DNA of 64,000 bases, taken from assembly GCA_014896485.1 (NCBI GenBank), contig JADBKH010000031.1, positions 1 through 64,000 on the forward strand, given 5' to 3'. Every line of letters begins with the position of its first letter. The stretch's first letter is position 1. The translations under genes were made by a program, and so were the position numbers. Shown here one piece after another: positions 22,749-40,811 of this stretch. Below the pieces are notes generated by a model, which did no database searches, was not told the origin of the DNA, and saw only the letters and a program-made list of their open reading frames with translations. The DNA is from Bacillota bacterium (GTDB lineage Bacteria; Bacillota; Bacilli; Bu12).

Positions 22749-22794
22749 TTGCAAGAAGACCATTCTTTTGGTAAGATTGATACGTGTACGTTCT
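22749..22794 (+). promoter_or_regulatory. Promoter with RTACG-N4-CGTAY operator (site 1)
   Basis: TTGCAA (22749-22754), 17 bases, TAAGAT (22772-22777), then GATACG-TGTA-CGTTCT (22779-22794). The left arm matches the shared operator exactly; the right arm has one change from CGTAYT. It drives the 22848-25855 operon (SCP2-like, alcohol dehydrogenase, aldehyde dehydrogenase). The placement just after the -10 box is the same as at the other sites. Confidence 0.65.
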
Positions 22795-22847
22795 AGTATT
22801 TGGGCCATTGGCCTTTTTGTTGTACTCAGCAGAAGAGGAGGAGAAAG

Positions 22848-23273
22848 ATGTCGGTTCCCTTTTTTAGCGAAGCATGGGCCAACGTGTGGAAAGAGAAACT
22901 CAATGCCAGCGATGCCTATCATACGGCAGCGGCCAACTGGGAATGGCCGCTGGTTGTTGTCTTTAAGGCAGATCCGGACTTGGGCATCGATGAAGACATT
23001 GGTATCTATCTCGATCTCTACCACGGCGAATGCCGCGAAGCCCGGTTGGCTACCCCCCAGGACCAGGAAAAAGTTCCATATGTGATCAGTGCAGATGCGT
23101 ACACGTGGAAACAAATTTTGAACCGGGAGCTTGATCCCATCATGGGTATCATGCAGGGCAAGATGAAGCTGGAGAAGGGGGATATGGCGACGTTGGCTGG
23201 CTATGTGCTGGCTGCCAAAGAGCTGGTCAACACCGCGTTAGAGATCGAAACCTCTTTTCCCGAGGGATGGTGA
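22848..23273 (+). CDS. SCP2-like lipid-transfer protein
   Basis: A 141-residue protein distantly like SCP2: VVVFKADPDLGIDEDIGIYLDL, a YVISADAYTWKQIL helix, and IMGIMQGKMKLEKGDMATLAGYV, matching the FMAGRxxxEGD block of the smaller paralogues. GAGGAGGAGAAAG precedes the ATG. It is first in an operon, four bases before the alcohol dehydrogenase, so it may present a hydrophobic alcohol or aldehyde to these enzymes; that is inference. Confidence 0.75.
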   Translation: MSVPFFSEAWANVWKEKLNASDAYHTAAANWEWPLVVVFKADPDLGIDEDIGIYLDLYHGECREARLATPQDQEKVPYVISADAYTWKQILNRELDPIMGIMQGKMKLEKGDMATLAGYVLAAKELVNTALEIETSFPEGW

Positions 23274-23276
23274 GCT

Positions 23277-24317
23277 ATGAAAGCGGCGGTTTTCAAGGGA
23301 ATGCATGAAGTCAGCGTGGAAAAGGTTCCCGAACCACAGATTCAACAACCTACAGATGTTGTGATCCGTGTCACGGTGAGTGCCGTCTGTGGTTCAGATC
23401 TCCACCTGTATCACAACAAGATACCTGGGTTGTTGCCGGGAGCGGTGTTGGGGCACGAGTACGTCGGGGTGGTGGAAGAGGTCGGTTCACAGGTCCGCAT
23501 GTTTGCCAAAGGGGATCGGGTGATCGGCGCTTTCAATCCAGCTTGTGGTATCTGTGAATTCTGCCGACGTGGTGCTTATAACCTCTGCAAAAACGGTGGA
23601 ATCCTGGGTTATGGAATGGCTTTCGGAAATTTGGCCGGTACGCAGGCCGAATACGCGCGTATTCCATTTGCCGATACCACTTTGCGCAAAGTCCCAAAAA
23701 CAGTCAGCGATGAGCAAGCCATTTTCTGCGGGGACATTCTGACAACTGCTTATGGAGCGGTAAAGAATGCCGCCCTGGTACCAGGAGAGACGGTCGCCGT
23801 CATCGGTGCAGGGCCGGTTGGCTTGCTGGCCGTGCAAAGTGCCTTTGCACAAGGAGCAGCCAAGGTACTCTCCTTGGATCTGGTCGATGAGCGCCTGCAG
23901 ATGGCCGAGGAGTTCGGAGCGATACCGATCAACTCGTCAAAGAATGCGACAGGCCAAGTCATGGAACAAACCGATGGCATCGGAGCAGATGTGGTGATCG
24001 AAGCGGTGGGGGGTACCCCAACCATTCTAATGGCCTTTGATCTCGTCCGGCCAGGTGGGCGAGTTTCCACGGTGGGCATTACAGCGGAGCCACAGATGAC
24101 CTATCCGTTGATGTCGTCGTTGGTCCGAGACCTAACCTTCCGTATCGGTGTGGCCAACATCCTACGCGATATCGATACGACGCTGCGCTTGGTCGAAAGC
24201 GGTCGACTGCAACCGGAACGGATTATCAGCGACCGATTCTCTTTGGATGATGTGCCGCAAGCCTACCAGAAATTCGCAAATCGCCAAATCCTCAAGGCGA
24301 TCGTGTCGATAAACTAA
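23277..24317 (+). CDS. Zinc-dependent alcohol dehydrogenase (MDR family)
   Basis: A 346-residue medium-chain dehydrogenase. Catalytic zinc ligands are visible in VCGSDLH and GHEYVG, the structural zinc site in CGICEFCRRGAYNLC, and the NAD(P) Rossmann motif in VIGAGPVGLL. Family resemblance is to threonine/butanediol/aryl-alcohol-type dehydrogenases. It is second in the operon with the SCP2-like protein before it and an aldehyde dehydrogenase after it, an arrangement suited to two-step oxidation of an alcohol to an acid. Substrate not predictable. Confidence 0.9.
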   Translation: MKAAVFKGMHEVSVEKVPEPQIQQPTDVVIRVTVSAVCGSDLHLYHNKIPGLLPGAVLGHEYVGVVEEVGSQVRMFAKGDRVIGAFNPACGICEFCRRGAYNLCKNGGILGYGMAFGNLAGTQAEYARIPFADTTLRKVPKTVSDEQAIFCGDILTTAYGAVKNAALVPGETVAVIGAGPVGLLAVQSAFAQGAAKVLSLDLVDERLQMAEEFGAIPINSSKNATGQVMEQTDGIGADVVIEAVGGTPTILMAFDLVRPGGRVSTVGITAEPQMTYPLMSSLVRDLTFRIGVANILRDIDTTLRLVESGRLQPERIISDRFSLDDVPQAYQKFANRQILKAIVSIN

Positions 24318-24343
24318 GAGGTGAGAACGGAGGAGGGAAGGCT

Positions 24344-25855
24344 TTGGCAACCTCGGTGGAAAACGAGCAAGTTATGCCGGCCGTACGTGACTTCATCCGC
24401 AATGGGCCAAAGCGTCTGTTCATTGGTGGAAAGTGGGTTGAATCCCAAGAAGGCAAAACATTCGATGATATCGATCCGGCGACTGGCGAAGGGCTCGCGC
24501 AAGTGTATGAAGCAAAGGAGGCCGATGTCGATCGCGCGGTTGCAGCAGCGCGCCGGGCCTTTGAAGGAACGTGGAGCTCACTGACGTCGGGCGAGCGCGG
24601 CAAGCTGTTGTGGAAACTTGCCGATCTGATGGAAGCACACCAGCTGGAGTTGGCCCAGCTTGAATCGTTGGATACGGGTAAGCCCATCAATGAGGCGATG
24701 ATCGGCGATATTCCGCAAGCCATCAATCACTTTCGCTATTTTGCTGGATGGGCGGGCAAGGTGACGGGTGAGACGCTTACTCCATACGGTCCTTCTCTTC
24801 CCGGAGAGTACCTGGCCTTTACACGTCGCGAACCACTCGGTGTGGTCGGGGCGATCGTACCCTGGAACTTTCCACTGATGATCACGAGCTGGAAAGTGGC
24901 TCCTGCATTGGCTTGTGGCAACACGGTGGTGCTCAAGCCTTCGGAGATGACACCTTTGACTGCCTTACGTTTGGCTGAATTGACACAGGAAGCCGGCTTT
25001 CCGCCTGGGGTCTTCAACGTGTTGCCCGGTTTCGGACAGCCTGCCGGTGCAGCTTTGGCCGACCATATGGGCGTCGACAAGATCTCCTTCACCGGTTCAG
25101 TTGTTGTCGGACGAAGTGTGATGCAGGCGGCAGCGCAGAGCAATTTCAAGCGTGTGACGCTGGAGTTGGGGGGCAAATCGCCCAATATTGTCTTTCCGGA
25201 TGCAGATCTCGACGCAGCGATCAGCGGAGTCATGATGGGTATCTTTTTCAATCAGGGAGAAGTGTGCTGCGCTGGATCACGCCTCTTCTTGCCAAAGTCA
25301 CAATTTGAATCCATGCTGCAGGGATTGGCCGATCGGGCAAAGCAAATTCGCCAAGGTCCTGGGATCTCGCCAATGACGACCATGGGTCCATTGATTTCTG
25401 AAAAACAGATGAACCGAGTTCTGCAGTATATCGAAACCGGAAAGCAAGAGGGGGCACAGGTGGTTTGTGGAGGCGATCGCAATGAAGCGGCTGGCCCTGG
25501 CTACTTTGTGCAGCCAACCATTCTCCTGGGAGAGGATCGGATGACCGTTTCTCAGGAAGAGATCTTTGGACCCGTCTTGGTTGCACTCCCGTACGAGACG
25601 TTTGACGAGGTAATTCAGCGGGCCAACGATACACCTTACGGTTTGGCCGCAGGCATCTGGAGCCGTGATATCAAGACAGCGCTCAAAGCGGCGCACCGCA
25701 TCAAGGCAGGAACGGTCTGGGTCAACGGATACAATGTGCTTGATGCGTCAAGTCCTTGGGGGGGCTTTAAGCAGACAGGAGTTGGGCGAGAGATGGGTTC
25801 GTATGCCCTTGAGCATTATACGGAGGTAAAGAGTGTCTGGGTGAATTTGACCTGA
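24344..25855 (+). CDS. NAD(P)-dependent aldehyde dehydrogenase
   Basis: A 503-residue ALDH-superfamily enzyme that oxidises an aldehyde to a carboxylic acid. Motifs are PWNFPLM, SFTGSVVVGR, the general base Glu in LELGGKSP, and the nucleophile in GEVCCAGSR; the closing PWGGFKQTGVGRE is also present. The start is TTG at 24344 after GGAGGAGGGAAGG. It is the last gene of the operon and ends before a strong hairpin at 25877. Together with the alcohol dehydrogenase it would supply the acid that an acyl-CoA synthetase such as 27105-28676 could activate. Confidence 0.93.
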   Translation: MATSVENEQVMPAVRDFIRNGPKRLFIGGKWVESQEGKTFDDIDPATGEGLAQVYEAKEADVDRAVAAARRAFEGTWSSLTSGERGKLLWKLADLMEAHQLELAQLESLDTGKPINEAMIGDIPQAINHFRYFAGWAGKVTGETLTPYGPSLPGEYLAFTRREPLGVVGAIVPWNFPLMITSWKVAPALACGNTVVLKPSEMTPLTALRLAELTQEAGFPPGVFNVLPGFGQPAGAALADHMGVDKISFTGSVVVGRSVMQAAAQSNFKRVTLELGGKSPNIVFPDADLDAAISGVMMGIFFNQGEVCCAGSRLFLPKSQFESMLQGLADRAKQIRQGPGISPMTTMGPLISEKQMNRVLQYIETGKQEGAQVVCGGDRNEAAGPGYFVQPTILLGEDRMTVSQEEIFGPVLVALPYETFDEVIQRANDTPYGLAAGIWSRDIKTALKAAHRIKAGTVWVNGYNVLDASSPWGGFKQTGVGREMGSYALEHYTEVKSVWVNLT

Positions 25856-25876
25856 GCTTTTGTGGCTACATCACAG

Positions 25877-25920
25877 CGAAGCGAGGAGACCGTTTCAAGC
25901 TTGTCGGTCTCCTCGCTTCG
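25877..25920. terminator. Long perfect hairpin between convergent genes
   Basis: Sixteen-base-pair perfect stem starting CGAAGCGAGG, with a 12-base loop, between the aldehyde dehydrogenase stop and the minus-strand R2lox stop. The T-tract is weak on both strands (TCTC after it on plus), so it may act as a bidirectional terminator or RNA stabiliser. Confidence 0.65.
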
Positions 25921-25944
25921 TCTCATGCGTGGTCATTGATGGCG

Positions 25945-26871
25945 TTAGGTGGCCGCCTGCTCCATTTCTGCCACTTCGGGTTCGTACTCCTCGGCTGGCA
26001 GACGATAAAGTTCTTCAATTTTCTTGCCACGGGCGCGTTCGATGACAGCCATCCGTCCCTGGAATTTCCGTATGCCATATTGCATAAAATCATTCGGATC
26101 GAATGCAAATGGCGGATTTTCTCCGTAAGATGCAGTCAATTCCGAGATTACGCCTGCGGCGTACTGCATCAGGTAGCTCATGCGATTTTGGATCACCTGA
26201 AAAATACTGTCGTCGACAGCGACGAGTCGGGATAGCAGATAGACCCCGTATGCAATGTGTCTTGACTCATCTGTCGCGATGAGTTGGATAGTTCTTCGAA
26301 ATCCAGGTGCCAAGCCCCGCGGCTCGAGCGCCTTGCGAAACCCGTAATAGCCCGTTTCCGCGAGGACACCTTCTACAATCATATTATACGTGACGGAGGC
26401 TTCAGCTTGAGCAGCAGGAGAGGGATCTGTCAGCAATCGGTGCATGGCTCCAGGCAATTCTTCATAGAATATTTTTTTGTAAGATGGAGTATGATACTGG
26501 CTCAGATCTTCATGACATCCGATGGCATCGAGGAATCGGCGAAATGCCTCGGTATGCTTGGATTCTTCAAAAAGAAAGTCAGTCAAGTACATTTCCTCTT
26601 CTAGGCGCCCTTCTTCCGCCATTGTCTTGACCAGCGGGAGCAGGTCTAAGGTGACGGCTTCTTCGCCAGCTCCAAAAAGCGAGACCAATTGCAACATGGC
26701 GTTTCGCTCTGCTTCTGTGATAGCATTCCAGTCTTTCACGTCTTGTGAATAGTCGATCTCATGAGGGTTCCATGTGCCCAGTCGTTTGCCCTTTTCATAC
26801 AGACGCGCGGGAAGCAGTGTCCAGTCAATTCCCTTGTTGATGGATTGGAAAGAGGTATGGATTTCTGCCAT
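25945..26871 (-). CDS. R2-like ligand-binding oxidase (R2lox), copy 1
   Basis: Ferritin-fold dimetal (Mn/Fe) oxidase related to ribonucleotide reductase R2. All six metal ligands known for the family can be placed: E70 in GAGEEAV, E103 and H106 in FEESKH, E167 in NMIVEGVL, E202 and H205 in DESRH. The Val-Tyr pair that forms the ether cross-link in characterised R2lox is also kept (V73, Y162). R2lox binds a long-chain fatty acid ligand, but its reaction is unknown. The ATG at 26871 gives the usual N-terminus; see the leader hairpin. The promoter carries the shared operator. A second copy lies at 33520. Confidence 0.92.
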   Translation of the reverse strand: MAEIHTSFQSINKGIDWTLLPARLYEKGKRLGTWNPHEIDYSQDVKDWNAITEAERNAMLQLVSLFGAGEEAVTLDLLPLVKTMAEEGRLEEEMYLTDFLFEESKHTEAFRRFLDAIGCHEDLSQYHTPSYKKIFYEELPGAMHRLLTDPSPAAQAEASVTYNMIVEGVLAETGYYGFRKALEPRGLAPGFRRTIQLIATDESRHIAYGVYLLSRLVAVDDSIFQVIQNRMSYLMQYAAGVISELTASYGENPPFAFDPNDFMQYGIRKFQGRMAVIERARGKKIEELYRLPAEEYEPEVAEMEQAAT

Positions 26872-26877
26872 TGATCT

Positions 26878-26895
26878 CGTGCCGCACCGCGGCAC
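26878..26895 (-). promoter_or_regulatory. Hairpin between ribosome site and start of R2lox-1
   Basis: On the minus strand GAGGAGGGA is followed by the perfect stem GTGCCGC-GGT-GCGGCAC and then seven bases later by the ATG at 26871. The ribosome site is 24 bases from that ATG, too far unless the hairpin folds and brings the two together. The alternative is a GTG start at 26895 inside the stem with a very short spacing. Confidence 0.5.
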
Positions 26896-26924
26896 TCCCT
26901 CCTCACGTAAAGGAAATGTAGGTT

Positions 26925-26979
26925 AGTACGATAGAGTACTATCTTTGTGGAGTTTACACGTGGGTTATGATACTGTCAA
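26925..26979 (-). promoter_or_regulatory. R2lox-1 promoter with RTACG-N4-CGTAY operator (site 2)
   Basis: Minus strand: TTGACA (26979-26974), 17 bases, TAAACT (26956-26951), then AGTACT-CTAT-CGTACT at 26940-26925. The arms AGTAC/GTACT are perfect. The operator covers the start-point region, so binding should repress. It faces the divergent promoter at 26989. Confidence 0.75.
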
Positions 26980-26988
26980 GACAATTTC

Positions 26989-27044
26989 TTGACACGTCAC
27001 GGAGAAGGTGATATAAAAATCAAAGATTGATACGACATCGTACT
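26989..27044 (+). promoter_or_regulatory. Acyl-CoA synthetase promoter with operator (site 3)
   Basis: TTGACA (26989-26994), 17 bases, TATAAA (27012-27017), then GATACG-ACAT-CGTACT (27029-27044). Near-consensus promoter with the operator at about +5 to +20. With site 2 it forms a divergent regulatory region for R2lox-1 and the acyl-CoA synthetase. Confidence 0.78.
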
Positions 27045-27104
27045 AATTTGAGAAAGCCGGAATTGGAAGTTTTATCTTTTTATTCAACAAGAGGGGCGAG
27101 AGAA

Positions 27105-28676
27105 ATGGCTGTTCGGGACATTTTGCGCAATACCGCTTCACGCTTCCCCGATCGTGAAGCAGTTGTTGCGGCAGATGGCCGTTACCGTTACGACGAGTTG
27201 CAAGATACGAGCTACAAGCTAGCGGGTTTGCTGCAGCAACGGGGCGTGGGAAAAGGGGACAAGATTGCGCTGTGTTTTGCCAATGATGAGGCGGGGAGCT
27301 TTATCCTGTGTTATTTTGCACTCCATTGGATTGGAGCAGTACCCGTGCCAGTCAATTCCCGCTGGGCACCTGATGAGAAGGCATTTGTCGCTGGCCATGC
27401 TCAAGTCAAGGGAGTGGTCAGTGGGGATGCCTATCTCGAACAATGGGAAGAAGGGTTGTCCCATAACGGATGGAAGCTTGATTTAAAGATAGCACGGCAC
27501 GCGACGCGAGAAGGATGGGAGAACTTGGATCAGCTTTTGGCTCAGTCTGCCCCATCCCCTCAGGAACCGCCTATTGACGATGCCGATCTGGCTGATCTGC
27601 TCTACACCTCCGGGACGACAGGACTACCCAAGGGGGTTGCGACTCCAGAAGGAAACTTGCAGATCCGTGCAGGCGATCCAATGGCGGCGGTAGCAGGCCT
27701 CATCTTTTCTGGGCGCATCCTGCACACGGTCCCCCTCTGTGGTTATACAGGGTTACATGGGTGCATGTTGATGAGTATCGAGGCGGGAGGGACGCAGATC
27801 ATTTTGCCTCACTTCGACGCAGGCGAATTCTTGCGGACCATTCCGGAAGAAAAGGTAAGTACGCTGGCTGCGGTACCCTCGATGCTCACGTTGATGATGA
27901 ACCATCCTGATCGCGAAAAGTATGCCTATTCTTCTCTGAAAATCGTCTTCTTCGCCAGTGCCCCTATGCCTCCCGGAACGTTGCGTGAGATGGTGCGCCT
28001 CTGGCCAGGACGGGCCTTGCTCAACGTCTACGGACAGACAGAAGCAGGCGGTGATCTCCTCCTTGTCATGGGTCCCGATCCCAAAGAACATTTGGAGCAC
28101 CTTGGTGCCTTGGGCAAACCAGTACCGGGGTGTGAGGTTGCCATCTTAGACGACAAGGATCAGCCGCTTTCAGAAGGGACAGTGGGTGAAATCTGCCTGC
28201 GCTCAAGCCGTACTCAACGTCATTATTACCGAAACGAGGACGCTGAGAAGCAACTTTGGCGCAATGGTTGGCTACACACAGGGGATGTGGGCTATATCGA
28301 CAAAGACGGCTATGTCCATTTGACCGATCGCAAGAAGGATATGATCATTCGGGGCGGCTACAACATTTTTGCGATAGAGGTTGAAAATGTACTGGATGAG
28401 CATCCAGACGTTGTCGAATCTGCGGTGGTCGGCTTGCCCCACCCAGTTTTGGGAGAAGATGTTGTCGCATTTGTCGTCTTGCGATCGGGCGCGAGCGTGA
28501 CCCCGCAAGCCCTCTATGATTTTTGCCGGCAACGCTTGGCTGATTACAAATGTCCGCGCCATATTCTCTTTGTGGACGCACTACCCCGCAATGCGATGGG
28601 GAAAGTGATCAAAGCAGAGCTGCGGGATCAATACCACGATCTCATTCTCGCAGAGCATGCGAAGCAAGGTGCCTAG
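27105..28676 (+). CDS. Acyl-CoA synthetase (AMP-forming)
   Basis: A 523-residue ANL-superfamily ligase that activates a carboxylic acid as CoA thioester. Motifs: LLYTSGTTGLPKGV (phosphate loop), YGQTEAGG, GWLHTGDVGYIDKDGY, DRKKDMIIRGGYNIF, and the catalytic Lys in PRNAMGKVIK. The ATG at 27105 with GAGGGGCGAGAG upstream is chosen; an apparent upstream TTG start would lie inside the operator at 27029-27044. It is divergent from R2lox-1 and co-regulated with it, so it may act on the same lipid pathway. It is a different subgroup from the ligase at 4111-5655. Confidence 0.92.
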   Translation: MAVRDILRNTASRFPDREAVVAADGRYRYDELQDTSYKLAGLLQQRGVGKGDKIALCFANDEAGSFILCYFALHWIGAVPVPVNSRWAPDEKAFVAGHAQVKGVVSGDAYLEQWEEGLSHNGWKLDLKIARHATREGWENLDQLLAQSAPSPQEPPIDDADLADLLYTSGTTGLPKGVATPEGNLQIRAGDPMAAVAGLIFSGRILHTVPLCGYTGLHGCMLMSIEAGGTQIILPHFDAGEFLRTIPEEKVSTLAAVPSMLTLMMNHPDREKYAYSSLKIVFFASAPMPPGTLREMVRLWPGRALLNVYGQTEAGGDLLLVMGPDPKEHLEHLGALGKPVPGCEVAILDDKDQPLSEGTVGEICLRSSRTQRHYYRNEDAEKQLWRNGWLHTGDVGYIDKDGYVHLTDRKKDMIIRGGYNIFAIEVENVLDEHPDVVESAVVGLPHPVLGEDVVAFVVLRSGASVTPQALYDFCRQRLADYKCPRHILFVDALPRNAMGKVIKAELRDQYHDLILAEHAKQGA

Positions 28677-28796: not shown

Positions 28797-29108
28797 ATGG
28801 CTACGTTAGAAGAAACATTGCAGCAGGTTGAAAAGCGATTGGAAGGAAAAAACTTTGCTGGCTCTGATGGGGTCTATCAATTTGACATAGAAGGTGCGGG
28901 ATCCTACCAGTTGGTAGTCCAAGATGGTCAAGCCAAAGTCATATCACCCCCAACAGAGCGTGCTGGGGTAACCATTAAGATGAACGCGGAGAATTTTCAA
29001 AAGATGATCAGCGGTGAACAAAATCCGACGGCCATGTTTATGGCAGGGCAGCTGCAGATCGAAGGCGATATGATGATGGCGATGAAACTGCAGTCGCTCT
29101 TGGCGTAG
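28797..29108 (+). CDS. SCP2 sterol-carrier-like lipid-binding protein
   Basis: A 103-residue SCP2 protein, clearly paralogous to 22370-22687: VYQFDIEGAGSYQLVV, VTIKMNAENFQKM and NPTAMFMAGQLQIEGDMMMAMKLQ. The Met-rich C-terminal helix would line the hydrophobic tunnel. It is 120 bases after the acyl-CoA synthetase on the same strand with GGGAGAGGAGC before the ATG. It probably shares the transcript and carries substrate or product for the ligase, by inference. Confidence 0.87.
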   Translation: MATLEETLQQVEKRLEGKNFAGSDGVYQFDIEGAGSYQLVVQDGQAKVISPPTERAGVTIKMNAENFQKMISGEQNPTAMFMAGQLQIEGDMMMAMKLQSLLA

Positions 29109-29139
29109 CCCCCGTTTCGCAGGGAGAGGCTCTCTTGTA

Positions 29140-29245: not shown

Positions 29246-29265
29246 CTTCATACATTGTATATAAG
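29246..29265. promoter_or_regulatory. Imperfect palindrome at the TetR gene start, candidate own operator
   Basis: CTTCATACATTGTATATAAG is an imperfect dyad around ATACATTGTAT, directly before the ribosome site AGAAGGG of the TetR gene. It shares the half-site CATTGTA with the perfect repeat at the 3' end of the same gene (29895-29914), which suggests self-control. It does not match the RTACG-N4-CGTAY class. Confidence 0.4.
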
Positions 29266-29275
29266 AAGGGATAAC

Positions 29276-29914
29276 TTGCAAAGTTTATATGAAATCCTCG
29301 ACTTGGATCGGTACTGTCAAACGTTTGCGGAGCGCAAGTTGGTTGCCGCAACGCTTGAGCTGCTGGAAGAACGGCCTTTCAATGAGATTTCTGTTCTCGA
29401 TATTGTCGAACGATCCCACCAATCCAAGACGAGTTTCTACAATCTATTTGAAAACAAAGAAGCACTCGCAGTCTTCCTGTTTGATATTGTTGCGCGTGCG
29501 GTGTGGGAGAAGATGGCCAGGGCGATCGATGCAGAACCGCAGTGGCGGGAAAAGCCCCGTGCTGCTGTCCGGACTTATGTCGATCTTTGCCTAAGTTATC
29601 CGCGGACTGCTCGTTTTTTGATCATCGATTCGGCTGGCGGAATTACTGCGTTGGATCAGTCTCGCTTAAATGCGCATGCAGCCTTTGCACAGCTGGTCGC
29701 ATCACGGTTGGGTTTCGAGCATCAAGACGAGAAGACACTCCATCTGTTATCGACCGCCATTGTCGGCGCAGCCAACGAAGTAGTCATCGATGCACTGCTG
29801 CGCAGTGAGAAAGGGAAGATCGATCGGGAGGCAGAAGCTGCCCGTTTGATCAATTTTTTACATCACGTGATTCTACAATTGTCCGTCTCCTTTGTTACAA
29901 TGCAAACATTGTAA
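29276..29914 (+). CDS. TetR/AcrR-family transcriptional regulator
   Basis: A 212-residue regulator with an N-terminal helix-turn-helix: RKLVAATLELLEERPFNEISVLDIVERSHQSKTSFYNLFENKEAL, in which TSFYNLF fills the TTFYRHF position. The C-terminal 150 residues are helical and would bind a ligand. The TTG at 29276 is chosen because AGAAGGG lies five bases upstream. It sits in the middle of the lipid-related regulon and is the only TetR gene in the window, so it is a candidate for the factor binding the RTACG-N4-CGTAY sites, but its own flanks carry a different dyad. Confidence 0.9.
   Translation: MQSLYEILDLDRYCQTFAERKLVAATLELLEERPFNEISVLDIVERSHQSKTSFYNLFENKEALAVFLFDIVARAVWEKMARAIDAEPQWREKPRAAVRTYVDLCLSYPRTARFLIIDSAGGITALDQSRLNAHAAFAQLVASRLGFEHQDEKTLHLLSTAIVGAANEVVIDALLRSEKGKIDREAEAARLINFLHHVILQLSVSFVTMQTL
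29895..29914. promoter_or_regulatory. Perfect 8+4+8 inverted repeat across the TetR stop codon
   Basis: TTACAATG-CAAA-CATTGTAA is a perfect 20-base dyad whose last three bases are the TAA stop. The spacing of four bases resembles a TetR operator. An alternative is a weak AT-rich RNA hairpin. Confidence 0.45.
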
Positions 29915-30005: not shown

Positions 30006-31853
30006 TTACTGCTGTAGCAAGGAAAATGCTTCTTTTAGCGCATTGTCCGTGACAGCAGCTGGGCCACCTGCCACCATCAGATTGGCATGACTGAGGTACT
30101 GACTCTGTAGAAATGCAGCCGATTCAGCTGGCAAAGTATCTGTGTCATTGCTCAACACTGTAGCTGCATGATGGGCCGCAGCATACGGCGCTGCTGTAAG
30201 GGCATCGATCATATGAGCATCGACACCGTCGGCTAAGACCACTTCCGGATACCCCTCTTGTGGAGCAAACTTGGTGTTTACGGCAACAGCGGTCGCGTAG
30301 CGGTTTTGTCCCGTTATGGGGGTTACCTGGCCGGGAAGCGTTAACCCATAGTTCGCTGCCGCCCCAATGACGTACTCTTTCTGGCCAGACCCCAAGTAAC
30401 GCGCTTCATCGTCAGAGAGCGTGCCTTTACCTGAGGCAAGCAAGATCGGAGCTACCTGCTGTGCAGCAAACGGACTGGCCACGATTGCATCGACCATATG
30501 GCTGTCTTCTTCTGGCGCAATAAAGGCTGAGGAAAAGCTCGTCTTGCCGGTTACTGCAGCAAGCTCTTCCGCGATGAGCGCTGCTGTCGCCTCTCGGTTT
30601 TTCCCTTGCAGGGAGATCACGCGGGCACTTCCAGGAAGCGCCGCTTTCACGGCATCACTGTTGGCCGCTCCTAACAAGACGATCGATTGGGGTTGTAACC
30701 GTGTCAACTCAGCCAGGGTGTTGCTGTCAAGGGTCACTTGGCCCTTGCTGTACTCTGTCGCCAAAAGAATCGGAGCGTTTAATGCTGAAGCGAGCGGACC
30801 AGCAGGAAGCGCGTCGATTAAATGCCAGGCACTGCCGTCTACAATCACTACGTTATTGGCCCCGTTGGGATAAAGCTTTTTGGAGATGTAAGCAGCGGTT
30901 TGCATCCGGTTCTGCCCACCCAAGCGAAGCGAAGACTGAGGGGGCATCTGCGGCTGCGTGGCTACAGCTTCAAGCTGTCCCAATTGAAGCGAGACGCCGC
31001 CAAAAAGAATGGGAAGCAGTTTCACGTTTAAGCCCGAGTAACTGGCGCCAATGACTTGACCGCTGCTATCTGTGATCGGCGTTGTTTTTCCGAGTGAGAT
31101 CTCGCCGACAAGCGGTACGTTGATGCTGTTTCCCGGAAGTAGCGTATGTTCGCTGCCGCCGATCTGCAGGATAGCAGCACCGGTGTTATCTGTGACATGT
31201 ACCTGGCCGGAAGGGTCATGAGTGACCGTGATCTTGGGCTCCCAATCCAAGATCTTCACTGCCCCATCCAACAAGGAAACACCCCCGAGCTGTAAACCGG
31301 CTTGGGTGTAACCTGGTTGTGCAAGGGTATCCGAGCCGATCCGCCCAATGCTGAGCAAGCTCAGCAAGTTGATGGAGGCTACTGTGCTTGATGCATTTGC
31401 TTGGGGCGTACCATCCTGCAGCTTATCTGCATCTGCACTCGCATTGAGCAAGCCTAAAGAGATGCCCAAGAGGCTGAAATTAGGAAGGCCCTTCTGCTTG
31501 GTCCCACCCGGCGGCAGCTGGGAAGTTGCCTCTACTGGAGCTGTTAAGTCACCAGTGAGCAGCTTCACACGAAGTGCTGAGCCATTGCCTAACCCTGTGC
31601 CGTTGGAATCAACGCCTGCAGAGCTATAGCCGGCATCTAGACCCAACAGGATCTTTTCCAAGGCACCTACATGAAGCACATCCGCAGTCGCATAATTCGG
31701 ATAGCCGTTTACCTCTACTTGCGCCGCGAGACTTGTCGTCGTAAGCGGAGCACTAGGTTCAGCTGCGTGTACAGCGGGCAGACCAAAGGTTGCGGCTCCG
31801 ACTGCAAATACGGTCACGGCACCGATCAGGTGCCCTTTGCGGTGAGGTTTCAT
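30006..31853 (-). CDS. Exported protein with three cell-wall-binding type 2 (CWB2) repeats
   Basis: A 615-residue secreted protein. A signal peptide covers about residues 8-30 (GAVTVFAVGAATFGLPAVHAA). The C-terminal half has three CWB2 repeats, each with a GxNRxxTA block and a DALxAxPxAA block (LGGQNRMQTAAYI, LQGKNREATAALI, ITGQNRYATAVAV), which anchor proteins to wall polymers. The N-terminal half is a Gly/Leu-rich beta-type region (GLGNGSALRVKLLTG, LLGISLGLLNASADAD) of unknown function. Its promoter carries the shared operator, which puts this surface protein in the lipid-related regulon. A ribosome site AGAAAGGAGC precedes the ATG. Confidence 0.85.
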   Translation of the reverse strand: MKPHRKGHLIGAVTVFAVGAATFGLPAVHAAEPSAPLTTTSLAAQVEVNGYPNYATADVLHVGALEKILLGLDAGYSSAGVDSNGTGLGNGSALRVKLLTGDLTAPVEATSQLPPGGTKQKGLPNFSLLGISLGLLNASADADKLQDGTPQANASSTVASINLLSLLSIGRIGSDTLAQPGYTQAGLQLGGVSLLDGAVKILDWEPKITVTHDPSGQVHVTDNTGAAILQIGGSEHTLLPGNSINVPLVGEISLGKTTPITDSSGQVIGASYSGLNVKLLPILFGGVSLQLGQLEAVATQPQMPPQSSLRLGGQNRMQTAAYISKKLYPNGANNVVIVDGSAWHLIDALPAGPLASALNAPILLATEYSKGQVTLDSNTLAELTRLQPQSIVLLGAANSDAVKAALPGSARVISLQGKNREATAALIAEELAAVTGKTSFSSAFIAPEEDSHMVDAIVASPFAAQQVAPILLASGKGTLSDDEARYLGSGQKEYVIGAAANYGLTLPGQVTPITGQNRYATAVAVNTKFAPQEGYPEVVLADGVDAHMIDALTAAPYAAAHHAATVLSNDTDTLPAESAAFLQSQYLSHANLMVAGGPAAVTDNALKEAFSLLQQ

Positions 31854-31894
31854 GGACTATGCTCCTTTCTAGTGAGAATCGCCGGAAAAATACT

Positions 31895-31954
31895 AATACG
31901 TATCAGTATGATTACGGCGAATCTTAAAATACACACTTGCTCTAATCTTGTCAA
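31895..31954 (-). promoter_or_regulatory. CWB2-protein promoter with operator (site 4)
   Basis: Minus strand: TTGACA (31954-31949), 17 bases, TATTTT (31931-31926), then CATACT-GATA-CGTATT (31910-31895). The CGTATT arm matches exactly, the other arm has one change. Same architecture as sites 1-8. Confidence 0.7.
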
Positions 31955-32019: not shown

Positions 32020-32066
32020 TTGACAATAGAGTCGATACTGCTCTAGGATTGATACGTTATCGTATC
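32020..32066 (+). promoter_or_regulatory. SDR promoter with perfect operator (site 5)
   Basis: TTGACA (32020-32025), 18 bases, TAGGAT (32044-32049), then GATACG-TTAT-CGTATC (32051-32066), a perfect 6+4+6 dyad starting one base after the -10 box. Confidence 0.8.
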
Positions 32067-33413: not shown

Positions 33414-33458
33414 TTGACTCTACTAGAAGAACATAGTAGGATAGTACGTGGTTGTATC
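33414..33458 (+). promoter_or_regulatory. R2lox-2 promoter with operator (site 6)
   Basis: TTGACT (33414-33419), 17 bases, TAGGAT (33437-33442), then AGTACG-TGGT-TGTATC (33443-33458). The -10 box and the immediate junction to the operator are the same as at site 5. Confidence 0.75.
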
Positions 33459-33519: not shown

Positions 33520-34443
33520 ATGCCGCAAGGAGTGGCCGTTCAAGCACAGCGAACGTATACCTCGGTCAGTGGACGGGGTATTGACTGGGGACTGATGCCC
33601 GCTAGGCTCTTTTCGAAAGGTAAGAGGCTCTATTGGGATCCGGAGAAGATCTCGTTTGAACAGGATAAGGTGGATTGGAAAAAACTCAATGAAGATGAGC
33701 AGGATATGATTCTCAGGCTGACATCCCTCTTTGGAGCTGGGGAGGAAGCGGTGACGCTTGACCTGCTGCCATTGGTCAATGTGATGGCACAGGAAGGTCG
33801 GTTGGAAGAGGAAATGTACCTCACTCAGTTTCTGTTCGAAGAGGCAAAACACACGGAAGCATTTCGCCGTTTCTTGGACAGCATCGACTGTCACGAAGAT
33901 CTGCATCGCTATCATACTGGAAGCTATCAGACGGTTTTCTATGAAGCACTTCCCCAGGCGATGGGCCGTCTCAACCAAGACCCATCTCCTGCCGCACAGG
34001 CCGAGGCTTCAGTGACGTATAACATGATCGTCGAAGGGGTGCTTGCTGAGACAGGATACCATGCGTGGCGGTCGATTCTAGAGTCGCGTGGGTTGATGCC
34101 TGGTGTCCAGGAGATCATCAGCAAAATTGCGACTGACGAATCGAGGCATATCGCCTACGGTGTCTATCTGCTGTCTCGGCTGATTGCGGTGGACGATGAG
34201 ATTTATGGCGTGGTTCAGAAGAAGATGAGCGACTTAATGGTGCCTTCGACGGGGGTGATTAACGATTTACTCGGTGCTTATGCGGGAAAAGAGGTACCCT
34301 TTGGATTATCCCCTGATGACTTTGTTAACTTTGCGATTCGCAAGTTTCAAGGGCGTATGGCAGTGATCGAACGCGCCCGCGGCAAAGCGGTCGACGAACT
34401 TTACCGGGCGCCGATCGAGACATTTGAAGAAGCAGACGCGTGA
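33520..34443 (+). CDS. R2-like ligand-binding oxidase (R2lox), copy 2
   Basis: A 307-residue paralogue of 25945-26871. Metal ligands align as E75, E108 (FEEAKH), H111, E172, E207 and H210 (DESRH), and the cross-link pair as V78 and Y167, so it should build the same Mn/Fe cofactor. The two copies share long identical blocks (GAGEEAVTLDLLPL, AEASVTYNMIVEGVLAETGY). The residues lining the ligand channel differ in places, so they may act on different chains or form a pair. The ATG at 33520 follows GGGAGG at 11 bases. A terminator follows at 34501. Confidence 0.92.
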   Translation: MPQGVAVQAQRTYTSVSGRGIDWGLMPARLFSKGKRLYWDPEKISFEQDKVDWKKLNEDEQDMILRLTSLFGAGEEAVTLDLLPLVNVMAQEGRLEEEMYLTQFLFEEAKHTEAFRRFLDSIDCHEDLHRYHTGSYQTVFYEALPQAMGRLNQDPSPAAQAEASVTYNMIVEGVLAETGYHAWRSILESRGLMPGVQEIISKIATDESRHIAYGVYLLSRLIAVDDEIYGVVQKKMSDLMVPSTGVINDLLGAYAGKEVPFGLSPDDFVNFAIRKFQGRMAVIERARGKAVDELYRAPIETFEEADA

Positions 34444-34567: not shown

Positions 34568-34610
34568 TTGCATCAAGTAGTATATAAGATCTATAATACG
34601 AAAACGTATT
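34568..34610 (+). promoter_or_regulatory. ABC1-kinase-like gene promoter with perfect operator (site 7)
   Basis: TTGCAT (34568-34573), 18 bases, TATAAT (34592-34597), overlapped by AATACG-AAAA-CGTATT (34595-34610), a perfect 6+4+6 dyad. Confidence 0.78.
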
Positions 34611-34672: not shown

Positions 34673-36382
34673 ATGGCAGTGGCATTGCCGATTCAACAAG
34701 AGGTCTACCACATCGACGCAAGAGATCTGACGCCTGCCAAGCGTCGCAATCTCATCGTGCGTACCTTCACAAAGTATGGGTTAACCTTGGTTTTTCGAGA
34801 CGGTGGATTGGCAATCTTTCGCAATGGTGGTGTGAATCTTTCAGAGGATCAACAAGCCCGTCTTGGCACGAATATCCGTCGATGTTTCGAGGAGTTGGGA
34901 CCCACCTTTATCAAGCTCGGTCAAGTGTTGGCGACGCGGTCGGATTTCTTGCCGGAATTCATCTGTGACGAACTGACCCTGTTGTTGGATGCCATTCCTC
35001 CTGCGCCCTTTGGTGAAGTGGCTGCGGTCCTTGAGGCGGAGTTGCCGGATGGCATGCGTACTTTCCGCCGGCTGGATCCGCAGCCGCTCGGTTCAGCGTC
35101 GCTGGCTTGCGTCTACAAAGCTGAACTACGGGACGGACGACCGTGTGCCGTAAAAGTTGTGCGACCCAATGTAGAGAAACTGTTTCAGACCGATATCGCG
35201 CTTATTAAGGGTTGGGTGAGGCGTTTGTCCAAACTCCTGCCCCCCCCTTTGGCGGCAGCGTTTGATCTGAACGGATTGCTGGATGACTACTATTCTTCCA
35301 GCTTGGCTGAGACCGATATGCGTCAGGAAGCCCAGCACATGGAAGATCATCGTGCATATATGGCGGAGTACGACCATTTGCGTGTGCCGGAAGTCTATCT
35401 CAAGCCGACGAAAAATGTACTTGTACAAGAGCTGGTGGATGGATGGAGCATTAAGGAGTTTCCTGTCGATTTCTTGACTTTGGAAGATCGTGCCATGTTG
35501 ATGAACGAAGCGGCACATTATTACATTAAGACGATCATGGAAGGGTATTATCATGCCGATTTTCATGCCTCGAACCTTCTGGTCGGTCGAGCTAAACAAC
35601 TTTATGCCATTGATTGGGGCATGGTTGGGCATGTTGACACCAATCTGACTGAGAACATCTTGAAACTGGTTAGTTACGTGTTCACCAATCGCATCAGTGA
35701 AGCGGCCGAAGTGGCTCTGCAGGTGATGCGGCCTACTGAGTACACGGATATGCAGGATTTCAAGCAGCAGTTTGTGACCCACGCAGAGAAGTACGCATGG
35801 AATGTCCAAGGAGATACCAAAGCCAACTGGGGTACGATGGTGATGGAGTTCATTCAGGTGGCCGCTGCTCATTACTGTAAGGTTCCCTCCGGGCTGGCGC
35901 TGTGGGCAAAAGGATGGTCGGCGACGGAGGCCGTGGCGCGCTGGTTGCTTCCCGAGTACAGTTATGCCCGGTCGGTAGAAACGTTTGATACCAATCTTCT
36001 CGAAATCTTCCTGCAGCATCATCTCAGTTTTCGTACCAACGGTTTCGCCATTTTCGATGTCGTGAAGATGCTTACGGCACTGCCCCAGCGCGTCGATGTC
36101 ATTACTGAACAGTTGGCGGATGGCACATTGACACTACAGACCGAACATCGTTTGACCCAGGCAACGGCACGTACCGTCAACACAGCGATTAATCGCGTTG
36201 TACTCGCCGCAATTGTCTGTGCCTTGTTGATAACGAGCGGGCTTTTTGCCATTGCAATGAAAGGGACAGCCCACACAGTGGCGTGGATCTGGATTGGCAG
36301 TGCCGCAACCGTTTGCGCGGTTGCTGGGGCTGTTTTGGGCATATGGACCCTGTGGCGTTTGCGACGATCGTCAAAAACGTAA
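34673..36382 (+). CDS. ABC1/UbiB-family atypical kinase-like protein
   Basis: A 569-residue AarF/UbiB/ADCK-type protein. Family motifs are FIKLGQVLATRSDFLP (the KxGQ block), GSASLACVYKAEL in place of the Ala-rich loop, AVKVV (Lys), YHADFHASNLLV (catalytic loop) and IDWGMVG (DFG equivalent). Two membrane segments close the C-terminus (VVLAAIVCALLITSGLFAI and a second). These ATPases support metabolism or movement of quinones and other isoprenoid lipids. CAGGAGGGGAAG precedes the ATG. It is under the shared operator; the stop region has a tandem repeat. Confidence 0.9.
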   Translation: MAVALPIQQEVYHIDARDLTPAKRRNLIVRTFTKYGLTLVFRDGGLAIFRNGGVNLSEDQQARLGTNIRRCFEELGPTFIKLGQVLATRSDFLPEFICDELTLLLDAIPPAPFGEVAAVLEAELPDGMRTFRRLDPQPLGSASLACVYKAELRDGRPCAVKVVRPNVEKLFQTDIALIKGWVRRLSKLLPPPLAAAFDLNGLLDDYYSSSLAETDMRQEAQHMEDHRAYMAEYDHLRVPEVYLKPTKNVLVQELVDGWSIKEFPVDFLTLEDRAMLMNEAAHYYIKTIMEGYYHADFHASNLLVGRAKQLYAIDWGMVGHVDTNLTENILKLVSYVFTNRISEAAEVALQVMRPTEYTDMQDFKQQFVTHAEKYAWNVQGDTKANWGTMVMEFIQVAAAHYCKVPSGLALWAKGWSATEAVARWLLPEYSYARSVETFDTNLLEIFLQHHLSFRTNGFAIFDVVKMLTALPQRVDVITEQLADGTLTLQTEHRLTQATARTVNTAINRVVLAAIVCALLITSGLFAIAMKGTAHTVAWIWIGSAATVCAVAGAVLGIWTLWRLRRSSKT

Positions 36383-36403: not shown

Positions 36404-36468
36404 TAGGGTAGTTAGGAAATGTACGTGAAATGTACGTGCGTATCGAGGTGGGGGAGGAGAAAGGGCCA

Positions 36469-36984
36469 ATGGAAAATAGGGCACAGGTTCAGACAGTAGC
36501 ATCGACGCTGAATCTTCCGGAAGTCACCGGACCCGACCGTGCCAAAGAGGAGAAGCAGAAAGAGAAGGCAGAGATCGCAGCACGGATTCAAGCGCTCTAT
36601 GAACGCAGTGGGGGGCCGACCAAAGCCGCTGAAAAGATTGAGCATGTGATCCGGGAGCATTTGAAGTATGGGAGAGATCACGGCGAATCAGGGCGTATCG
36701 AAACCTACGACAATGTCATTCGGCGTTTCCTCAATACGGATCGCAGTTGGTCTGGTTTTGTCAAGGAAGGGCAAAAGGCGGGTGCCCTCCTAATGAATTT
36801 TGCCAGTCAATTTATCCCGCGCCCTGATCCAGGTATCGAACATGTGGCCAAAGAGCTGCATGACCTAAATGAGACGCTCTCGACCTTTGTTACCATGCAG
36901 GAACGGATGGCGCGTCTGGAAGCCAAGCTGGATCTGGTTTTGCGGCAACGCAGTGAACTTAGAGATGGAGGCGGGCGGGGATGA
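36469..36984 (+). CDS. Hypothetical coiled-coil protein
   Basis: A 171-residue soluble protein, charged and helical: a Lys/Glu-rich N-terminus (AKEEKQKEKAEIAARIQALY), a central EHVIREHLKYGRDHGESGRIETYD, and a C-terminal leucine-heptad coil (MARLEAKLDLVL). No family recognised. GGGGAGGAGAAAGG precedes the ATG. Its end overlaps the start of the next gene by four bases, so the two are translationally coupled and likely work together. Confidence 0.65.
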   Translation: MENRAQVQTVASTLNLPEVTGPDRAKEEKQKEKAEIAARIQALYERSGGPTKAAEKIEHVIREHLKYGRDHGESGRIETYDNVIRRFLNTDRSWSGFVKEGQKAGALLMNFASQFIPRPDPGIEHVAKELHDLNETLSTFVTMQERMARLEAKLDLVLRQRSELRDGGGRG

Positions 36985-38030: not shown

Positions 38031-38178
38031 TGTCCATGTGGGGCACTGTTTTGAATTTCCTGCGAGCAAGGACTTTGGAAAAAATGAAGGGAGGTGAGCG
38101 TGATGAAATGAGTGTGAGAAAAGGGAAAAGTTGAGTCCGCTGAATATAAAAAGTGATTTTGAAAGGAGAGGAAGGATC

Positions 38179-38748
38179 GTGGCCACAGTGCTTTCTACCC
38201 CTGAGCGTGTGATGGTGGCTCCTATCTATGGTAGGACCAATCGAATGCGCTTCTGGGTCGTACTGTTCGCTGGTTTGGTGATTCTTGGAGGAATTCTCGC
38301 AGCGGTTTCGAGGGGAGCTGTGGCAATGGCGGCAACGATACCGCTGCCCCTCGATATCAGGGTGACCAATCTGACTGGGACAAATTTCATGCTGGTACCT
38401 GGGACTGCCAAAGGAACAGGCGCACCGACCGGGGTGGGGAACTTAACCGGCGATTTAAAAGGATTGTCCATCTCTAAATCGCTGGGAATTGCAGGCCATG
38501 ATGTAACCTTGAACATCACCACGGGTCCGGGAAGCGTTGCCCATGCTACCGGTTTGACTCTGGATCTTGATTCGTTGAACAGCAGTGGTGCAACTTTCAG
38601 CGGCCTGAGTTTCGCCACAGGGGGCCAAAACGGCTTATCGCTGGGAGCGAACCAGATTGTGCTAGACAATGGCGTCATTCACTCGCCCTTTTTGATGGCC
38701 AACAGCATTACGCTGCCAGGACTAGGCTTGTCATTCACCCTCAAATGA
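38179..38748 (+). CDS. Membrane-anchored/exported DUF6230-like protein
   Basis: A 189-residue protein beginning with GRTNRMRFWVVLFAG and one hydrophobic signal-anchor (LVILGGILAAVSRGAVAMAA), then a strand-rich exported domain with LTGTNFMLVPG. This matches the layout of DUF6230 proteins, common in actinobacteria where they neighbour DUF6114 proteins and are sometimes loosely labelled cholesterol esterase. A DUF6114 protein is encoded 1.1 kb away on the other strand. The GTG at 38179 follows AAAGGAGAGGAAGG. Function unknown. Confidence 0.65.
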   Translation: MATVLSTPERVMVAPIYGRTNRMRFWVVLFAGLVILGGILAAVSRGAVAMAATIPLPLDIRVTNLTGTNFMLVPGTAKGTGAPTGVGNLTGDLKGLSISKSLGIAGHDVTLNITTGPGSVAHATGLTLDLDSLNSSGATFSGLSFATGGQNGLSLGANQIVLDNGVIHSPFLMANSITLPGLGLSFTLK

Positions 38749-38789
38749 TCATTCCCACGTTGCCCAGTGTAGGCTGCGATTCCGTTTGA

Positions 38790-38820
38790 AAAAAGGATTG
38801 CCGAATCGGCAATCCTTTTT
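38790..38820. terminator. Bidirectional rho-independent terminator
   Basis: Fourteen-base arms AAAAAGGATTGCCG / CGGCAATCCTTTTT, perfect, with a three-base loop AAT. T-runs exist on both strands, so it ends both the DUF6230-like gene and the convergent methyltransferase gene. Confidence 0.9.
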
Positions 38821-38850
38821 ATGAGCAGAAGGTGCTGAAATTACGACAAT

Positions 38851-39777
38851 TTATGCCGGCTTTTCGGCGCGAATAATGCCATATCGCCACAGATCGTTGC
38901 GAAAAGCTCTGTACTGTGCAAAACAAGCTTTGTAGTTCTCCCACTCGTGGTTGACGAATTGACCCAATATGTGCCCGGTAATAGCAGGAACGGTGGTGAG
39001 CAGCGCCATGTGGTGGAGTCTTTTGACGCTAGGGGCAACATATGCGCTGTGATCGCTGGCTTGCACTTGCTCAAAGCCTGTATCCTCGATCATACGACGC
39101 ATCTCGGTTAAAGTCGTGAAATGTGTTACCCAACCCCGGTTCCATTGGCGGATCCAACGCTCTTCTGTTGAAGAAAAAGTATGCTTTGTCAGTAGAAAGT
39201 CGCTCATCAGCAAAATGCCGCCCGGTCTGAGCAGCCGAAAGGCTTCTTCGCAAAAGCGCCGTTTGTCAAGGGCATGACAAAGCGATTCAATAGCCCAAAC
39301 TTGATCAAAAGAGTCATCGGGAAAAGAAGTGTTGCAGTAATCTTCCACATAAAATGAAACGGAATCTTCTAGATGCAGCCGCCTGCAGTTTGCGTTGGCC
39401 TGTGTGATCTGATCTTCAACAATGTTGATACCCACTACTGGACCACCGTGGTGGCGAGCGAGCCAAACAGCCGTTCCACCCACCCCACAGCCGGCATCTA
39501 AGATAGACGCATTCTTTGTGGCCCCGCTGATCTCGTAGAGTTTCTCGTTGAGGCGAAGCAATGCCTTCTGATGGCTGTGAACCCCCCGATCCCAGTACCC
39601 GTAATGATAAGCGAGCGTCTCATCATTAAACCAGAGTAAGCGATAGTCGCGCAGTGTTTGGCGGTAATATGCGCGTATTGCTTCGTAATCGTCGGCTTGA
39701 ATCACTTCTGATGGGGGATGCACCAATAAACGTGTCGCTGTGGTCTCCCTTTCATCGGGTTCGGGCGCAGTGGGCAT
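38851..39777 (-). CDS. SAM-dependent methyltransferase (sterol/isoprenoid methyltransferase-like)
   Basis: A 308-residue class I methyltransferase. The SAM motif is ILDAGCGVGGTAVWLA near residue 94, with VWAIESLCHALDK and LRPGGILLMSDF later. The opening YHYGYWDRGVHSHQKALLRLNEKL resembles sterol C-24, tocopherol and geranyl-diphosphate methyltransferases, which act on isoprenoid lipids. GAAGGAGGGATCCC precedes the ATG. It follows the SCP2-DUF6114 gene by 36 bases on the same strand, so it belongs to the operator-controlled transcript from 40811. Confidence 0.82.
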   Translation of the reverse strand: MPTAPEPDERETTATRLLVHPPSEVIQADDYEAIRAYYRQTLRDYRLLWFNDETLAYHYGYWDRGVHSHQKALLRLNEKLYEISGATKNASILDAGCGVGGTAVWLARHHGGPVVGINIVEDQITQANANCRRLHLEDSVSFYVEDYCNTSFPDDSFDQVWAIESLCHALDKRRFCEEAFRLLRPGGILLMSDFLLTKHTFSSTEERWIRQWNRGWVTHFTTLTEMRRMIEDTGFEQVQASDHSAYVAPSVKRLHHMALLTTVPAITGHILGQFVNHEWENYKACFAQYRAFRNDLWRYGIIRAEKPA

Positions 39778-39813
39778 GGGATCCCTCCTTCGTTCTGCGC
39801 TTCTGCTGCTTAA

Positions 39814-40749
39814 TTACACTTTGCGAACCGCCTTGCCTACCTGCGGTGCCGCTTGCCACCCTTGTTCTGCAGGACGCATCACGGGTGTCCAGGCGACGCC
39901 CAAAGCACCTCCGACCAAGCCGAATAGCAGACCGACGACGAGTCCTCCCATCGACGTGATCAAGGAGACGAGTGCTAAAACGATCGTGATGCCGCCGACA
40001 AGGGTGCTGTAATAAGGGGTTAGAAGCTGGGCCAATCCCATGACGATGAGCAGCCCTCCTACTATCAGGCCTTCCCAGAGATTGCTGCCCGGAAGTAAAG
40101 CGAATTGAAGGAAGGATGCTGGCCCAACCACGACAAAGATTCCACTGAGCAGGGTAAGAATACCGGCATAGAAAGGTCGTGTATGGCGCCAACGCCAGAA
40201 CCTGCTGTTTGCTTCCTGAGTTTCGTCTGCTGCAGGCGTCTCTGTGGTGCGCTCCTGCACCCTAGCAGCGGCAGCTTCGCTGGACCCTTGTGGATTCGTA
40301 GCTGAAACCGCAGAGGTGCTTTTCACAACTGGAAGGGCTGTTTTGGAGTGACGGTGACGCTTTCCTGGAGGCTGTAGGAGAGTCAAGCGCCTACCTATTT
40401 CACCTATCACAGCGGAGAGAAGGGGAGCCCAAATGACCACATCTGCCACTTGAGCGCCATCCACTTTGATCTGACCGGTGGTCAGCAGGGAAGTGATCTC
40501 GGCGCTACCCCTGCTTGCGAGCTGCCAAGTCGTCTCGGGTGCATGCAGGACGTAGACAGGGGTATCTGGTTCGGGAGCGGGAGTATAGAGTGCCCAAGTA
40601 TCCTCGATCCGCAGGTAGAGTGGGCTGGCATCGTCGATGCTGAAGCCGAAGGTCACGCTTTCCGTTGTGCTGTCATTGAGGCGTATCGGTTGTTGGATCG
40701 CTTCAAGCCAATGCTCTTGCGGGGTGGATTGTTGTTCGGTACGCGCCAT
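39814..40749 (-). CDS. SCP2-like domain fused to a DUF6114 membrane domain
   Basis: A 311-residue protein. Residues about 25-115 look like an SCP2 lipid-binding domain (ESVTFGFSIDDASPLYLRIED, TPVYVLHAPETTWQLASRG, ITSLLTTGQIKVDGAQV in place of FMAGRxxxEGD). A Ser/Ala/Thr linker follows. Residues about 190-295 form the DUF6114 core, opening with RPFYAGILTLLSG, then three or four membrane segments and the closing LVGGALGVAWTP. DUF6114 proteins in actinobacteria accompany DUF6230 proteins. The fusion suggests the membrane domain handles an SCP2 ligand. First gene of an operator-controlled operon. Confidence 0.75.
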   Translation of the reverse strand: MARTEQQSTPQEHWLEAIQQPIRLNDSTTESVTFGFSIDDASPLYLRIEDTWALYTPAPEPDTPVYVLHAPETTWQLASRGSAEITSLLTTGQIKVDGAQVADVVIWAPLLSAVIGEIGRRLTLLQPPGKRHRHSKTALPVVKSTSAVSATNPQGSSEAAAARVQERTTETPAADETQEANSRFWRWRHTRPFYAGILTLLSGIFVVVGPASFLQFALLPGSNLWEGLIVGGLLIVMGLAQLLTPYYSTLVGGITIVLALVSLITSMGGLVVGLLFGLVGGALGVAWTPVMRPAEQGWQAAPQVGKAVRKV

Positions 40750-40769
40750 TTTTTACCTCCTATAATACC

Positions 40770-40811
40770 GATACGTACCAGTATTAAAACACAAAGACCC
40801 TGTTTTTGCAA
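40770..40811 (-). promoter_or_regulatory. SCP2-DUF6114 operon promoter with operator (site 8)
   Basis: Minus strand: TTGCAA (40811-40806), 17 bases, TTTAAT (40788-40783), overlapped by AATACT-GGTA-CGTATC (40785-40770). The CGTATC arm is exact, the other has one change. Same architecture as sites 1-7. Confidence 0.72.

Follow-up and report, generated by a model that had tools for sequence, protein, structure and literature searches.

The subject of this paper is a set of eight short DNA sites, and the genes beside them, in a 64,000-nucleotide stretch (the window) of contig JADBKH010000031.1 from a Bacillota bacterium (assembly GCA_014896485.1). Reading from sequence, we consider it likely that all eight serve as operators for a single repressor of the TetR family, encoded in their midst (29255–29914, plus strand), a FadR-like and autoregulated protein that would be released by acyl-CoA and would govern a lipid-oxidation regulon, including both of the cluster's genes for R2-like ligand-binding oxidases (R2lox). 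The sites, their positions at promoters, their conservation and the co-occurrence of operator and TetR gene are there in the DNA to be read. The kind of system is known; what is new is the link between R2lox and an acyl-CoA regulon, along with the mixture of operator forms. As of 2019, according to PMC6399176, the physiological function of R2lox had not yet been identified, and a conserved regulator and operator common to genes for acyl-CoA synthetase (ACS), acyl-CoA dehydrogenase (ACAD), SCP2-domain proteins and short-chain dehydrogenase/reductase (SDR) gives these oxidases a testable physiological context. Among titles and abstract openings, mostly outside subscription journals, we found no account of this regulon.

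Two forms of the probable operator

A preliminary description of the window had placed eight near-identical sites beside eight promoters. All eight are present (at 22780, 26926, 27030, 31890, 32052, 33444, 34596 and 40765), and each has a plausible promoter: the best-scoring pair of −35 and −10 boxes is of the TTGACA or TTGCAA type with a spacing of 17–18 bp, and the site starts, in all eight cases, somewhere between 2 bp inside the −10 box and 22 bp after it. Under a stricter promoter scan the pairs at four of the eight (26926, 31890, 32052 and 33444) pass, and the same scan of the whole region returns 20 promoter-like sites, against 13.0 (sd 3.9) in shuffled sequence.

What does not survive is the idea of a single class of sites; there are instead three 20-bp double dyads and five single dyads. 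The three are of the form RTAC-N2-RTACGTAY-N2-GTAY, a pair of overlapping 14-bp dyads with an offset of 6. One of them (22780–22799, plus strand) has one mismatch and lies 2 bp past the −10 box of an operon for an SCP2 protein, an alcohol dehydrogenase (ADH) and an aldehyde dehydrogenase (ALDH); the two others are exact and on the minus strand, at 31890–31909, downstream of the promoter of a gene for a CWB2 surface protein, and at 40765–40784, past the −10 box of a DUF6114/methyltransferase gene pair. The remaining five are single 14-bp dyads, and we hold them less certain than the 20-mers. Two are the perfect 6+4+6 dyads of the earlier claim: at the SDR gene one lies 2 bp past the −10 box (32052–32065, plus), and at the ABC1-kinase gene the other overlaps the −10 box (34596–34609, plus). 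An exact 14-mer (27030–27043, plus) sits downstream of the ACS promoter, a dyad with one change (33444–33457, plus) lies 1 bp past the −10 box of R2lox-B, and the weakest of the eight (26926–26939, minus) is downstream of the R2lox-A promoter.

Are such sites more than one would expect of any DNA of this composition? The exact RTACGNNNNCGTAY occurs three times in the window, where shuffles predict 0.04, and at one mismatch or fewer the 18-kb cluster holds eight places against 1.1 expected (Poisson P about 3e-5, for a region picked post hoc). The 20-mer at one mismatch or fewer is found at three places in the whole 2.17-Mb genome, all of them in this cluster. Relaxed to three mismatches or fewer, it loses this distinction (35 places in the same genome, below the 44 of the control), and 20-mers with two mismatches on contigs C14 and C28 both fall inside overlapping open reading frames (ORFs) and were taken as chance.

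Elsewhere in the genome there are signs of further members. Exact 14-mers number six, four of which precede the ACS, SDR and ABC1 genes of the cluster and a second acyl-CoA synthetase gene, on contig C4; this last site (C4:2706) is 33 bp before the start of the gene, between two minus-strand ORFs, with a 114-aa ORF on the opposite strand also covering it. The other two (C1:37862 and C27:6358) are inside ORFs and were dismissed as chance. Among 17 matches to acyl-CoA synthetase, only the window's and that on C4 have an exact 14-mer in their locus. On contig C45 (L195), a one-mismatch dyad 40 bp before the start of homologs of ACAD1 and ACAD2 overlaps a promoter-like pair, TTGAAT-N17-TAGAAT. These sites are suggestive, not proof, of regulon membership; given the dyads before the C4 synthetase and the C45 ACAD operon, it is doubtful that the operators are a feature of the cluster only, and the regulon probably extends to both.

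The TetR protein and its probable operator in relatives

The strongest case for a single regulator comes from other genomes. In a sample of 398 genomes of the class, the exact 20-mer occurs in 33 (6 for a reversed control) and a homolog of this TetR (E ≤ 1e-20 against the Paludifilum protein) in 21, of which 20 also have the exact 20-mer (Fisher p = 5e-24, with kinship ignored). Those 21 are the genome studied here, 17 with a protein of one clade, which we call T1, and three others: G066, whose match is a gene fragment (L154); G359 (L155), which falls outside the group and is the sole TetR genome without the operator; and G180 (L153), whose TetR groups with a sister clade, T2 (support 0.84), and has the exact 20-mer upstream at a like distance to that in T1. 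In 16 of the 17 T1 loci of other genomes (L136–L152, a count that omits L153, L154 and L155 for the reasons just given), the exact 20-mer lies about 20–40 bp ahead of the stretch matched to TetR; Paludifilum (L026), with the site just upstream of its homologous TetR gene, is an example. The exception, L141, has its 20-mer only downstream of TetR, ahead of an ACAD gene.

The window protein belongs to this company. A FastTree of 30 sequences, made without the G066 fragment, the window copy L131 and L136 (a copy of L026), puts it in T1 with local support 1.0; it keeps the motif SKT[TS]FY, which we take to be the recognition helix; and the T1 orthologs find it as their closest match in its genome (E = 3e-26), with the runner-up at 8e-12 and 25% identity. 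The preliminary description had proposed the TetR gene at 29276 (the ORF at 29255–29914) as a candidate for the regulator, and among candidates it is now the best supported, with orthologs that carry the operator ahead of their own gene, in genomes where it also precedes the same gene families. The wider suggestion of one regulator over a lipid-linked set of genes has gained support on both counts.

Thirteen genomes have the 20-mer and no TetR homolog. In seven loci inspected (L089, L090, L092, L093 and L100–L102) the site is inside an ORF, and the other six genomes, all of family f22, have the same 20 bases as L093. T2 carries an exact 14-bp dyad upstream in five of six loci (L156 is the miss), and thus one protein of this TetR group could serve both operator forms. 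In T2, an acyl-CoA synthetase gene follows TetR in two (L157 and L158) of the loci L157–L161, as well as in L156; none was seen in the flanks of L159–L161.

What does the operator precede in these relatives? It stands before TetR, ACAD, SCP2, ACS and SDR genes in varied combinations and, separately, before an operon of the order SCP2-(ADH)-R2lox-(ALDH)-ABC1; the exact 20-mer is upstream of SCP2-R2lox in Paludifilum, two species of Melghirimyces, Kroppenstedtia and another Bacillota genome. R2lox homologs (E ≤ 1e-40) are found in 63 of the 398 genomes, and TetR and R2lox occur together in 12 of the 21 TetR genomes (that of the window included); of the 11 others with both, seven have the exact 20-mer ahead of the R2lox operon. 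When 29 R2lox loci from other genomes were scanned, the operator was within the locus in six of the nine from T1 genomes (in G354 it is just outside, as seen in L026), and the 20 from genomes without the TetR gave no match at one mismatch or fewer and one at two. At the same cut-off R2lox was not found in seven of the 17 other T1 genomes, and so ACAD, SCP2, ACS and SDR look like the core of the regulon and R2lox like a frequent addition. The 20-bp consensus could be used to map this regulon in culturable Thermoactinomycetaceae.

We also built a matrix from 32 distinct operators of T1 genomes and R2lox loci, to which neither G180 nor sites seen solely in the 13 TetR-less genomes contributed. 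Since its sites were picked by exact match to a pattern first noticed in the window, its independence is not complete. The three 20-mers score 31.6, 31.5 and 20.5 against it, where the best among 20 shuffled windows is 5.1, and with the 14-bp form seven of the eight sites outrank every other position in the window.

A proposed switch and the case against it

How might such a system work? A TetR dimer would read the dyad RTAC-N6-GTAY, and at the three promoters with overlapping dyads there would be room for two dimers, since two dyads share the 20-mer. The sites fall on the −10 box or shortly beyond it, which points to repression: a protein bound there would block RNA polymerase. The ACS, SCP2 and TetR genes are co-directional behind the operator at 27030 (with gaps of 120 and 146 bases), an arrangement that suggests autoregulation, although a weak promoter-like sequence at 29116, ahead of the TetR gene, means that this gene may be transcribed separately. 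By analogy with FadR-type TetRs, long-chain acyl-CoA would release the protein, and release would switch on a programme of lipid or fatty-acid oxidation: the SCP2 carriers, the two R2lox genes, the alcohol and aldehyde dehydrogenases, ACS, SDR and the ABC1 kinase, probably joined by ACADs and a further acyl-CoA synthetase encoded outside the window. Binding, repression, the number of dimers, the ligand and the order of the pathway are all things that we infer. A predicted model of the TetR protein is all-helical (pLDDT 74.6, from a two-sequence alignment), and among its best fold matches are the stearoyl-CoA complex of B. subtilis FadR (rank 2), FasR (rank 6) and the palmitoyl-CoA complex of DesT (rank 12), as well as EthR, EthR2 and Rv0078; the acyl-CoA-binding matches, taken with the enzymes controlled, suggest long-chain acyl-CoA as the inducer. 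More speculatively, and here we are doubtful ourselves, R2lox might perform an O2-dependent first step (a hydroxylation), to be followed by ADH, ALDH, ACS and ACAD with SCP2 as carrier, while one acyl-CoA-sensing TetR grades its targets through one-dimer and two-dimer operators.

This scheme has known kin. Like TetR-type FadR of B. subtilis, B. halodurans and Thermus thermophilus, it would join a TetR repressor fold to a FadR-type fatty-acid regulon. The operators differ: the B. subtilis site is TGAATGA...TCATTCA, unlike the RTAC/GTAY dyads here. Thermus FadR, according to PMC5597230, governs genes of fatty-acid degradation, those for acyl-CoA ligases and acyl-CoA dehydrogenases among them, and its operator as given there, TTRNACYNRGTNYAA, also differs from these dyads. 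Between B. subtilis FadR (3whb) and the Paludifilum T1 TetR the resemblance is weak (E = 1e-8), and B. subtilis FadR is absent at E ≤ 0.01 from a search with the window TetR; we have not filed the protein as FadR, because neither sequence relationship nor operator matches, and the regulon here, unlike those of FadR, includes R2lox. TetRs of the QacR and CprB type bind overlapping dyads as two dimers, and the 20-mer likewise has four half-sites in about 20 bp, as two dyads offset by 6 bp; unlike theirs, the regulon here also seems to hold single-dyad operators.

A good deal weighs against the scheme, and most of it concerns the single dyads. At one mismatch or fewer the 14-mer occurs 138 times in the 2.17-Mb genome, against 218 for a reversed control, which is to say that it is not enriched and is, alone, no reliable detector. 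The preliminary description had itself said that a motif at random frequency elsewhere would tell against it; for the 14-mer that is half the case, and the answer comes from the 20-mer and its conservation alone. Against the 14-bp matrix the sites at 32052 (6.4), 27030 (5.0) and 33444 (4.8) are within the shuffled range, whose best is 14.3, and 26926 scores below the other sites, outside the 24 best matches. Of the three exact 14-mers that lie beyond the window, two are inside ORFs; the 16 ACAD matches of the genome include three loci with a one-mismatch 14-mer, which is about background, and the chance of such a dyad upstream of the ACAD operon is about 0.006 per 100 bp. Both R2lox genes in this genome have single dyads only, the stretch immediately ahead of the window's TetR gene yielded no operator, and that TetR shares only about 30–39% identity with T1 members. 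The fold matches are generic for a TetR model. Among relatives, the exact 20-mer is missing at R2lox in four of the 11 other genomes with both genes (G016, G130, G180 and G230), and three Alicyclobacillus-type loci (L009, L036 and L054) keep the order SCP2-ADH-R2lox-ALDH-ABC1 and have no 20-mer there; those operons are presumably under other control. An alternative operator was sought in five regions of the operator-less R2lox operons (L009, L036, L054 and L051), and a few dyads turned up, none in common, so that we claim none. In L054 the sequence directly ahead of SCP2, ATACGAGTAC, consists of two half-sites without partners.

One might imagine two regulators, with TetR confined to the three 20-bp operators and some other factor on the five single dyads. 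There are indeed two operator forms, the single dyad is what the sister clade T2 carries in relatives, and most single dyads are weak against the T1-derived matrix; the single dyad is, all the same, half of the 20-mer, both forms occupy the same promoter position, and a further member of this TetR group was not found in the genome (the next best being the runner-up already mentioned). We regard two regulators as unlikely, though of the alternatives this is the one to take most seriously. That an unrelated DNA-binding protein does the work, with TetR merely travelling with the cluster, draws on the lack of a site immediately upstream of the window TetR's own start, and it fits poorly with an operator just upstream of TetR in 16 of 17 T1 loci, including those where no R2lox was found, and with a co-occurrence of 20 in 21; we give it very little weight.

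We give equally little to a TetR acting mainly as an activator, or otherwise not as a repressor, at these sites. The sign of regulation is beyond what sequence can tell, and nothing direct speaks for activation; all eight sites, in the best promoter matches, fall on the −10 box or beyond it, the usual place for a repressor. Least probable of all is that AT-rich promoters happen to contain these dyads by chance. Genome-wide the 14-mer stands at the background level, as we have said, and three exact copies stand against 0.04 by shuffling, with a 20-mer conserved across genomes; for the 20-mers, given that conservation, a chance origin is very unlikely. We return, then, to one TetR repressor as our preferred account of all eight sites.

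Genes of the cluster

The two R2lox paralogs, R2lox-A (25945–26895, minus) and R2lox-B (33520–34443, plus), are 67% identical and lie in the same cluster with separate sites. Both match the R2lox family, and here the two share one regulon with SCP2, ADH, ALDH and acyl-CoA enzymes. Alignment of R2lox-B with 3ee4 (E = 8e-81) shows that the Val and Tyr which form the ether cross-link are conserved, and the translation of R2lox-A has the same motifs.

From the left, the first operon encodes an SCP2-domain protein (22848–23273, plus; PF02036 at 27.9 bits, cut-off 21.3), homologs of which adjoin R2lox in relatives, followed by a zinc alcohol dehydrogenase (23277–24317, plus) and an aldehyde dehydrogenase (24344–25855, plus). 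Beyond R2lox-A come the acyl-CoA synthetase (27099–28676, plus), a second SCP2-domain protein (28797–29108, plus; 81.9 bits against the same cut-off) and then the TetR-family protein proposed as repressor (PF00440, E = 6e-9). The surface protein with CWB2 cell-wall-binding repeats is on the minus strand (30006–31853), and the SDR gene on the plus strand (32097–32939), with a GTG start read from the sequence and homologs in the regulon of relatives. After R2lox-B stand the ABC1/UbiB-like atypical kinase (34673–36382, plus) and a conserved small protein (36430–36984, plus) that is next after ABC1 in several relatives as well.

At the right end, on the minus strand, are a DUF6114 protein (39814–40749) and, downstream of its gene, a SAM-dependent methyltransferase (38851–39777). 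The former had been described as part SCP2; at E ≤ 0.001 Pfam gives no PF02036 match in it, and DUF6114 only. Genes for DUF6230 (38131–38748 in the window) and DUF6114 lie close to R2lox in the window, as they also do in several Alicyclobacillus-type and related loci, and a model of the DUF6230 protein is beta-rich, at low confidence (pLDDT 59.7). Just outside the cluster, at 41694–42392, the window encodes a PucR-type helix-turn-helix regulator.

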